Shown here piece by piece: positions 6,235 to 8,323 of a stretch of DNA of 64,000 nucleotides. The notes beneath the pieces were generated by a model. That model did no database searches, was not told the DNA's origin, and saw only the letters and a list, made by a program, of their open reading frames with translations. A program made the translations under genes and the position numbers. Position 1 is the stretch's first letter. Each line of letters starts with the position of its first letter. The DNA comes from Neisseria subflava. GTDB lineage: Bacteria > Pseudomonadota > Gammaproteobacteria > Burkholderiales > Neisseriaceae. Location: positions 1,798,001-1,862,000 of the forward strand of contig NZ_CP073117.1 of the NCBI RefSeq assembly GCF_024205745.1. Reading direction: 5' to 3'.

Positions 6235-6293
6235 CAAGTAGCTGGGAACACTTGAAAAGAAAATTAAAAAATAAATAAAAAGGAAAAAATATT

Positions 6294-6320
6294 ATGACGA
6301 CAACCGAACCTCAAAATACG
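6294..6320 (+). other. Probable true start and frame break of the RNA ligase gene
   Basis: ATG at 6294 has an AGGA site nine bases upstream and begins MTTEPQ, but its frame is not the ligase frame. The ligase frame, read upstream of 6374, gives KYARSLHAPISLGTTSDDRF, which looks like the conserved N-terminus of this ligase family. The two frames would join if the run of four A at 6313-6316 had five. Either one A has been lost in this genome or the assembly has an indel. Confidence 0.65.
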
Positions 6321-6373
6321 CCCGCAGCCTGCACGCGCCCATCAGCCTCGGTACCACCTCTGACGACCGCTTT

Positions 6374-7096
6374 ATGCCGCGCGGCTTTCTTTCATATTTT
6401 GCCTCGTTGCCGAAATTGGTTTTAACCGAAAAATTAGATGGGCAAAACAACTGCTTTGCCGCGCACGGCCTCTATGCCCGTAGTCATGCTGCGCCTACAC
6501 AGCATCCGTGGGATAAACCTTTGCTGCAACGATGGCAGCAAATCAAAGATGATTTAGGCGACCTTGAACTTTTTGGCGAGAATATGTATGGCATTCATTC
6601 GATTGCCTATTCGCAACTGGAAAGCTATTTTTACCTGTTTGCAGTCCGCCGTAGCGGACATTGGCTTTCATGGGAAGAGGTTAAATTTTATGCGCAGCTG
6701 TTTGATTTTCCGACTGTGCCAGAAATCCCCGTTGTCCAGCCGCTTGCAGATTTCACTCAAAAATACGCCAATGAAGATATTGCTTTAGCGCAATGGCTTG
6801 CCGCCAATTTGGGAGAGCCGTGGACGGACAGCGTACAAACTGCCGGTAAGCTTGGCGGCTACGATCCGAATACAGGAGCAGCGTGCAGTGAAGGTTTCGT
6901 TATCCGTAACGCCACTGATTTTGCCACCAACAACGGCAACCTGCCTGTTCAATCCAATGAATTCGACAATCTTTTCAAATTGGTACGAGCCAAACACGTT
7001 AAAACCGACGTCCATTGGACGAAAACTTGGAAGCCTGCCCGTCTTATCGATTACGACAAATACCATTGGCAAAGCTGGCAGTTTCAGACGGCCTGA
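6374..7096 (+). CDS. RNA ligase (nucleotidyltransferase superfamily), 5' end frameshifted
   Basis: ATP-dependent ligase that seals RNA ends through a ligase-AMP intermediate. From the ATG at 6374 the 240 residues show motif I EKLDG with nucleophile K20, motif III-like ELFGENMYG (65-73), motif IV EGFVIRN (173-179) and motif V-like LFKLVRAKHVK (200-210). This ATG has no ribosome site and omits about 20 conserved upstream residues, so the natural start is probably 6294 with a one-base break between. The stop lies inside an uptake sequence, giving the C-terminus WQFQTA. The next gene is the end-healing kinase, 32 bp downstream, so the two form an RNA-repair operon. Whether the product is made in this strain is doubtful. 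Confidence 0.8.
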   Translation: MPRGFLSYFASLPKLVLTEKLDGQNNCFAAHGLYARSHAAPTQHPWDKPLLQRWQQIKDDLGDLELFGENMYGIHSIAYSQLESYFYLFAVRRSGHWLSWEEVKFYAQLFDFPTVPEIPVVQPLADFTQKYANEDIALAQWLAANLGEPWTDSVQTAGKLGGYDPNTGAACSEGFVIRNATDFATNNGNLPVQSNEFDNLFKLVRAKHVKTDVHWTKTWKPARLIDYDKYHWQSWQFQTA

Positions 7097-7128
7097 AGTC
7101 CAATTATCCAATAATAAGAAAGACAATT

Positions 7129-8262
7129 ATGTGGACATTCCCATATTACATACCCGGCCAACTTCCTGATTGGCAAGCCTTAGAACGTCGTTTCAGTTGG
7201 TTTGCCGATATGAAGGACGTTCCGCAAGACCCTGAGTGGCATGCCGAAGGCGATGTATTTACGCATACCAAAATGGTGTGCGAAGCCCTTTTACAACTGC
7301 CCGAGTTTCAAGCGCTTGATGAACAGGAGCAGCATATTCTGTTTGCTGCCGCCATGCTGCATGATGTGGAAAAACGCAGTACGACCAAGCGTGAAATTGA
7401 AAATGGCAAAGAGCGGATTGTCTCGCCGCATCACGCAAAAAAAGGCGAACATACCGTCCGTACTTTGCTGTATACCGAACTTGCCGCTCCGTTTGCCGTA
7501 AGAGAAGCAATCGCCAAACTCGTGCGCTTGCACGGATTGCCCTTATGGGCGATTAACAAGCCTAATCCTGAGCGAGCCGTCATAGCGGCCAGTTTGCAGG
7601 TCAACACTGCGCATCTTGCCATGCTTGCTAAAGCCGATGTTTTAGGCCGTATATGTTGCGACCAACAGGATATTTTGCTGCGCATTGATTTGTTTCGTGA
7701 ACTCTGTGAAGAAAATGCTTGTTGGGGTAAGGCACGTACTTTCACCAGCGACTACGGACGCTATCTCTATCTTAACGGCCGTAGCGAAATGCCGGATTAT
7801 CAGCCATTTGATGATCGGACCTTTGATGTGTACGCCATGTGCGCCATAGCAGGTAGCGGCAAAGACAGTTACATCAGGCAACATCTTGCCCATCTGCCCA
7901 TGCTGTCGTTGGATGAGATTCGCCGTGAGCGCAAACTTGATCCCGCAGATTCCAAACATACCGCCGAAGCAGTGCGTTTGGGTAAAGAGCAGGCAAAAGA
8001 ATACCTGCGTGCCCGTACGTCGTTTGTCTTTAATGCGACCAATCTTAACCGCGACCTGCGCAGCAAATGGCTGCCGATGTTTGCCGATTACGGCGCCCGC
8101 GTGCATCTCATTTATTTGGAAGTGCCTTACACGCAATTGCTATCGCAAAACCGTAACCGCGAATATTCTGTGCCGAATGATGTGTTGCACCGTATGATAG
8201 AAAAGTTAGAAATTCCTGATTACAGTGAAGCGCATACAGTGGATTTCGTGGTTTCTTCTTAA
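7129..8262 (+). CDS. HD-domain polynucleotide kinase (HD-Pnk-like RNA end-healing enzyme)
   Basis: 377 residues from ATG 7129, which follows an AAGAAAG site. The N-terminal half is an HD phosphohydrolase: H38, H46, H78-D79 (MLHDVEKRS) and H101-H102 are candidate metal ligands. The C-terminal half is a P-loop kinase of the polynucleotide-kinase type: AGSGKDS at 241-247, candidate base D262 (SLDEIRRERK), and an NATNLNRDLR lid-like segment. Characterised proteins of this architecture (Runella HD-Pnk) remove 2',3'-cyclic or 2'-phosphates and phosphorylate 5'-OH ends, preparing breaks for ligation. Adjacency to the RNA ligase supports that role; substrates in Neisseria are unknown. Automatic annotation will usually say AAA family ATPase. 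Confidence 0.85.
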   Translation: MWTFPYYIPGQLPDWQALERRFSWFADMKDVPQDPEWHAEGDVFTHTKMVCEALLQLPEFQALDEQEQHILFAAAMLHDVEKRSTTKREIENGKERIVSPHHAKKGEHTVRTLLYTELAAPFAVREAIAKLVRLHGLPLWAINKPNPERAVIAASLQVNTAHLAMLAKADVLGRICCDQQDILLRIDLFRELCEENACWGKARTFTSDYGRYLYLNGRSEMPDYQPFDDRTFDVYAMCAIAGSGKDSYIRQHLAHLPMLSLDEIRRERKLDPADSKHTAEAVRLGKEQAKEYLRARTSFVFNATNLNRDLRSKWLPMFADYGARVHLIYLEVPYTQLLSQNRNREYSVPNDVLHRMIEKLEIPDYSEAHTVDFVVSS

Positions 8263-8282: not shown

Positions 8283-8323
8283 AGGCCGTCTGAAACAATC
8301 CAATGTTTCAGACGGCCTTTTTA
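8283..8323 (+). terminator. DUS inverted-pair terminator of the RNA-repair operon
   Basis: AGGCCGTCTGAAAC ... GTTTCAGACGGCCT stem followed by a T run; also faces the converging gene at 8360. Confidence 0.8.

Follow-up and report, generated by a model that had tools for sequence, protein, structure and literature searches.

What a pair of adjoining genes for RNA ligation and end healing is for, and against which kind of attack, is the question raised by a 64,000-nucleotide stretch of Neisseria subflava DNA (positions 1,798,001 to 1,862,000 of contig NZ_CP073117.1, assembly GCF_024205745.1; hereafter, the window), which is part of a single-contig genome of 2.21 Mb. The pair occupies positions 6294..8262 of the window and consists of an RNA ligase gene and a gene for HD-Pnk, a protein in which an HD phosphohydrolase is joined to a polynucleotide kinase. 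Most probably, the two genes form an end-healing and sealing module that acts on RNA and is layered on RtcB-PrfH, a ribosome-repair pair encoded at another locus of the same genome. The module itself is of a known kind, and the new, testable part is its link to RtcB-PrfH. We know of no established physiological substrate of HD-Pnk/ligase operons, and since the target of RtcB2-PrfH is known (16S rRNA, colicin E3), the genome-level link gives a direct, testable hypothesis for them.

The second gene (7129..8262, + strand) encodes 377 amino acids, with the HD phosphohydrolase at approximately residues 1-200 and the 5'-OH polynucleotide kinase at approximately 230-377, as delimited by profiles, alignment and a structural model. 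This is the architecture of the HD-Pnk class, in which a single polypeptide of some 380-420 residues carries an HD domain at its N-terminus and a P-loop polynucleotide kinase at its C-terminus. In Pfam, the protein matches AAA_33 with 69.9 bits (cut-off 27), whereas the HD match remains sub-threshold (19.2 vs 22 bits), and the presence of an HD domain is supported by the predicted structure together with residue conservation. A preliminary description, made from the letters of the DNA, had proposed the union of both domains in one protein, and AAA_33, the model and the residues agree with it. The model is confident and resembles polynucleotide kinases as well as a tRNA-processing enzyme with an HD domain, each of the structural matches listed covering one or the other domain; for the HD region, the tRNA-processing enzyme is the closest of these in structure, and a profile search finds such an enzyme too. 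One phage family, phrog_6931, spans residues 33-375 and with them both domains. The HD-then-kinase order recurs in 12 of 12 aligned homologues, and H38, H46, H78, D79, H102, D170, G244, K245, D262, R265 and R344 are invariant (12/12 and 24/24). They are presumed to be the metal-site residues of the HD domain and the active residues of the kinase, with presumed counterparts in T4 Pnk, which was aligned as well. The P-loop (window 7858-7866) reads GKD instead of the usual GK[ST] in 9 of the 12 aligned sequences, with S or T as the next residue in eight; GKS occurs in two Deinococcus rows and GKN in one Pseudomonas row.

The first gene is represented by a longest main-frame open reading frame (ORF) of 240 amino acids (6374..7096, + strand), whose nucleotidyltransferase domain scores 81.9 bits against PF09414 (RNA_ligase; cut-off 27). 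It has motif I (KxDG) and motifs III-V, the EKLDG, EGFVIRN and KLV motifs previously listed are all there, and the residues of EKLDG, GE, EG and K-x-VR are conserved in the alignment. The ligase profile places RNA ligase as the top match and DNA-ligase entries further down. Two types of ligase can be told apart, a short one of Neisseria, Proteus and Deinococcus and a longer one that is Rnl2-like by eye. The stop codon of the ligase ends at 7096 and the ATG of HD-Pnk is at 7129, which leaves the 32 bp gap originally given.

The start of the ligase gene (6294..6373, + strand) is frame-shifted in this assembly. A Shine-Dalgarno-like AAGGA (6280..6284, + strand) precedes the ATG at 6294 by nine bases, and the preliminary description had the ligase begin at this ATG, which did not hold, as a frameshift intervenes in the first eight codons; after its preceding stop, the main frame has no ATG, GTG or TTG until 6374. 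Over the shifted part, the main frame encodes the conserved KYARSLHAPISLGTTSDDRF, where a K, a Y, an H, an S and a D are shared by all 11 aligned ligases. In all seven distinct relatives compared, the ligase is in frame from its start (frames read off the sequences of 10 loci, L004/L012, L005/L009 and L007/L010 being the same records), while in this strain the PF09414 gene is not intact, and its product may be inactive or N-terminally truncated. The loss of the conserved N-terminal stretch could mean that the module is decaying and unused in this strain. Against this, the ratio of non-synonymous to synonymous substitution rates (dN/dS) is low in both genes: for the remaining ligase frame it is 0.068 and 0.062 against two close relatives, similar to the 0.071 between those two, and the break is therefore either recent (very recent, if real) or due to misassembly. 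HD-Pnk is intact in this strain, and decay is a possible yet doubtful state of the module.

Among 83 Neisseriaceae genomes, 18 have HD-Pnk (203-619 bits; in G073, the gene runs off the contig); the alignment search, at an E-value of 0.001, matches something in 81 of them, the rest being single-domain matches of 18-44 bits. The ligase is present in all 18, and as a remnant in G024 (19 in total), so the pair is conserved together in other genomes, and a chance pair is rejected. With seven further HD-Pnk genomes from samples of the phylum and the class, the ligase lies 5' of HD-Pnk on the same strand within at most 135 bp in 22 of 25 genomes, the window included. In G082, it is 704 bp from HD-Pnk with one small ORF in between, and in G031 and G065, it is kilobases off, on the opposite strand and also split. 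The pair extends to viruses: the best 80 of 137 relatives gave 79 viral loci, the neighbours were inspected in 26 of these (L110-L135) and three more, and 16 of the 26 have the ligase inside the retrieved stretch, where two pairs of loci seem to represent one phage each and the match of L122 is short. The 462-kb phage record LR756500.1 has ligase and HD-Pnk side by side. A review covers the RNA repair sets of jumbo phages (PMC7824862).

The preliminary description also had RNA healed and sealed without RtcB. This stands for the module and fails for the cell, since the genome encodes RtcB (L033:6515-7648, longest ORF; PF01139, 241.6 bits) and, at once after it, PrfH (L033:7636-8289, longest ORF, whose true start may be a few codons later; TIGR03072, 232.7 bits, cut-off 166.65); a cell without RtcB is thus rejected. 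The order is that of RtcB2-PrfH, a system that is likewise concerned with RNA and ribosome repair and differs in occupying a separate locus here, approximately 175 kb from the ligase and HD-Pnk. Within the genus, RtcB (PF01139) is found in 14 of 46 genomes (partial in G007), the same 14 that have PrfH. Of the 83 family genomes, 35 score above the PrfH cut-off, among them every HD-Pnk genome and G024, which makes 18/18 genomes with HD-Pnk vs 17/65 without. As it was the pattern in the genus that prompted the test of PrfH, the independent evidence comes from genomes outside it: in the rest of the family (n = 37), PrfH occurs in 10/10 HD-Pnk genomes vs 11/27 others. HsdR, a restriction gene and the one accessory gene used as a control (46/83), is spread over genomes with and without HD-Pnk alike (11/18 vs 35/65, p 0.79) and has no association with PrfH either (p 0.27). 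In the phylum sample (n = 398), 255 genomes give some HD-Pnk match, of which seven were counted, all with at least 339 bits; the next below has 127 bits and covers the HD part only. PrfH is present in 14 of the 398, and when the genome of the window is left out, in 5/6 HD-Pnk genomes vs 8/391 others.

A tree built from one release-factor gene covers 73 of the 83 family genomes (six were not fetched and ORF calling lost four; HD-Pnk is absent from all ten, and PrfH is present in one, G046), and HD-Pnk changes at least nine times on it. When HD-Pnk was simulated to evolve independently of PrfH, full nesting inside the PrfH set never arose in the 3,787 runs that gave 14-22 positives, and arose 7 times in the 10,914 that gave 8-28. 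The tree rests on a single gene, its G056 row is very long and the simulation model is simple; the simulation favours a link between HD-Pnk and PrfH, as support and not proof.

In one genome, the two systems adjoin. G089, from another family of the class, has a one-strand cluster within 5 kb (L107:4667-9658) in the order rtcB, prfH, a proteasome-like gene, a low-molecular-weight phosphatase-like gene, ligase and HD-Pnk. G024 encodes a homologue of the phosphatase-like protein (63% identity over 98 amino acids) some 1.6 kb away from its ligase remnant (L035), and on a 179-kb viral contig, a short RF-1 (GGQ) domain protein (L120:7939-8394) is encoded within 3 kb of HD-Pnk. A Proteus mirabilis record (L045, NZ_OL790811.1) has both the pair and prfH; at 4.08 Mb it is of chromosome size and is labelled as a plasmid. 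The co-occurrence in the sampled Neisseriaceae suggests that ligase/HD-Pnk and RtcB-PrfH counter one type of attack.

How the module may act follows from its parts. From the genes, domains, residues, pairing and co-occurrence observed, we infer the enzyme activities, RNA as the substrate and the division of labour: the HD domain of HD-Pnk would remove the 2',3'-cyclic phosphate (and a 2'- or 3'-phosphate), its kinase domain would phosphorylate 5'-OH ends, and the adjacent ATP-dependent ligase would join the resulting 3'-OH and 5'-PO4 ends. RtcB, whose chemistry differs in using 3'-PO4 and 5'-OH, seals 2',3'-cyclic phosphate/5'-OH ends directly. Context alone suggests action against toxins, and the likely targets would be RNAs cut by ribonuclease toxins or by phage-induced nucleases. 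In Neisseriaceae, the module would be an extra layer above the ribosome-repair pair, with PrfH-RtcB handling cleaved 16S rRNA on stalled ribosomes and ligase/HD-Pnk handling other breaks, for example those in tRNA. Cleavage by colicins E3, E5 and D produces 2',3'-cyclic phosphate and 5'-OH ends, and in E. coli, RtcB2-PrfH protects against colicin E3, which cuts 16S rRNA, but not against E5 or D, which cut tRNA (PMC9223846). A second pathway for other RNAs would therefore be a sensible partner, and the nested distribution of HD-Pnk within that of PrfH fits this idea.

More tentatively, the two systems could be seen as one layered anti-ribotoxin programme. PrfH and RtcB2 would free and reseal ribosomes cut in the decoding centre, and ligase/HD-Pnk would mend what these cannot (tRNA, altered ends), being kept mostly where the first layer exists (always, in the Neisseriaceae sample). 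The second layer would also cross phyla, from Neisseria to Rothia, and travel on large phages, in one contig beside the release-factor-like protein.

Several findings weigh against a module that acts on RNA and is layered on RtcB-PrfH. HD-Pnk occurs without PrfH in G164 of the phylum sample and in G768, the one new HD-Pnk genome of the class sample (n = 360), and the PrfH frame of G377 contains a stop codon. The independent-pairs test on the tree found no opposing pair and too few pairs, with a median p of 0.25 (not significant). In the kinase, the first glycine of the P-loop is an alanine in the Neisseria proteins, and to the ligase frame broken in this assembly are added the split or cut ligases of G031, G065 and G024. 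In the window, no neighbour of the pair suggests a toxin or defence setting, the flanking ORFs being housekeeping-like (judged by eye, no search of them being made), and PADLOC models gave one weak Cas10 match for HD-Pnk (E-value 0.01) and none for the ligase; a known anti-phage defence system is rejected, as PADLOC lends it no support. Finally, in Deinococcus, HD-motif mutants were not reduced in 3'-phosphatase activity, where the authors suspected a contaminating E. coli activity, and the ligase homologue was adenylylated and sealed neither DNA nor RNA under the conditions tried (PMC1997131).

That result also touches the claim that the pair holds all activities needed for repair, of which the catalytic signatures are present while the activities themselves remain inferred from them, the Deinococcus homologue having sealed nothing (PMC1997131). 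The ligase might then be an adenylyltransferase only, one that adenylylates or caps RNA 5' ends, for example, with HD-Pnk acting alone or with RtcB. DRB0100, the Deinococcus ligase, forms an AMP adduct (PMC1997131), the model of the intact N. sicca ligase is not confident towards the C-terminus (pLDDT, the per-residue model confidence, is below 50 for most of residues 239-267), and HD-Pnk is retained in G000, G031 and G065, where the ligase is broken or split. Set against the joint presence of ligase and HD-Pnk in every HD-Pnk genome of the family and the low dN/dS of both genes, this makes a ligase that does not seal quite improbable.

Which polynucleotide is healed is the other point on which readings diverge. 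Instead of RNA, HD-Pnk might heal 3'-PO4/5'-OH ends at DNA strand breaks, to be sealed by this or another cellular ligase. On a plasmid of Pseudomonas sp. FeN3W, the pair has umuD, recX and a Y-family polymerase gene in its vicinity, and the Deinococcus kinase partner was active on DNA, phosphorylating a DNA oligonucleotide, in an operon induced by irradiation (PMC1997131). The HD region, however, best matches a tRNA-processing enzyme by structure, and the profile finds such an enzyme too, the ligase profile puts RNA ligase before DNA ligases, and the co-occurrence is with the RNA-repair pair RtcB-PrfH, so that repair of DNA appears unlikely and a module acting on RNA is preferred.

Related systems place the module further. 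Munir and Shuman reportedly described, in J Bacteriol, the HD-Pnk of Runella slithyformis, which is said to have kin in 11 phyla that often adjoin an ATP-dependent ligase; by this description, it has the same domain order and size and comes from a different phylum. The window proteins differ from Pnkp1-Rnl-Hen1 and bacterial Pnkp in that Pfam finds neither a metallophosphoesterase nor Hen1 in them, the phosphatase being, as predicted, the HD domain. The HD-Pnk/ligase operon of Deinococcus radiodurans, DRB0098-DRB0100 (PMC1997131), is alike in combining HD-Pnk (29% identical to the window protein) with an adenylation-domain-only ligase (32% identical to that of G037) in one same-strand cluster. 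It differs in being plasmid-borne and studied as DNA repair (PMC1997131), and in a third, macro-domain-like gene in between (PGAP name TIGR02452, L050:4081-4938). The primer printed for DRB0098 in that paper (PMC1997131) encodes MNRKNRT, which is found in the frame of this middle gene, so that labels of the primer table may have been swapped.

As to novelty, the module had been thought undescribed in Neisseria: among the papers listed for Neisseria and RNA repair, none is about it, to judge by titles and abstract beginnings. The type itself is known. A 2016 survey of RNA repair systems by Burroughs and Aravind may cover parts, and the PrfH link may already be in print there. The consulted portions of two papers on prfH-rtcB (PMC1586002, PMC6514570) make no mention of the ligase/HD-Pnk pair, nor is it named in the main text of section 2.4 of the latter (Burroughs and Aravind, 2019), on genes accreted around prfH-rtcB. 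The word "Neisseria" is absent from the main text of PMC1586002 and PMC9223846.

A copy of the pair outside the family is found in AP017895.1, titled as the complete genome of Rothia aeria, which has a Neisseria-type ligase and HD-Pnk (L011:3746-7128). HD-Pnk has 91% amino acid identity. At the DNA level, the ligase region matches its counterpart in Neisseria sp. HMSC077D05 with 97% identity, and the segment also contains part of the gene that lies upstream of the module in the window. Its G+C content is 0.48; it adjoins a stretch of 0.39, and the flanks have 0.59-0.62. Transfer from Neisseria is the simplest reading and a chimeric assembly is possible; a genuine copy would mean that repair genes of this kind pass between phyla. 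Between its ligase and HD-Pnk lies a leucine-rich-repeat gene, and 3' of the pair are, by eye, C5-methyltransferase-like and AAA-type genes. The plasmids of the collection hold no DNA near-identical to the pair.

In several relatives, the surroundings of the ligase vary. An HNH-like Cys/His domain stands ahead of the ligase in one chain, in a huge phage and a Pseudomonas plasmid, or is encoded nearby (L121:2898-3992, L047:5161-6243 and L110-L115, recognized by eye and by similarity between loci); in the fusions, Pfam scored the ligase part only. In G024 (L035:5753-7752), which has lost HD-Pnk and has a shortened ligase, the adjoining ORF has a deaminase-toxin-like domain (PF24241) and DUF6911. 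In the window, the 3' end of the ligase contains TTCAGACGGC (7083..7092, + strand), which we take to be the inverse of the Neisseria DNA-uptake word, and an inverted pair of uptake-word repeats, terminator-like in sequence, lies 3' of HD-Pnk (8285..8316, no strand assigned).
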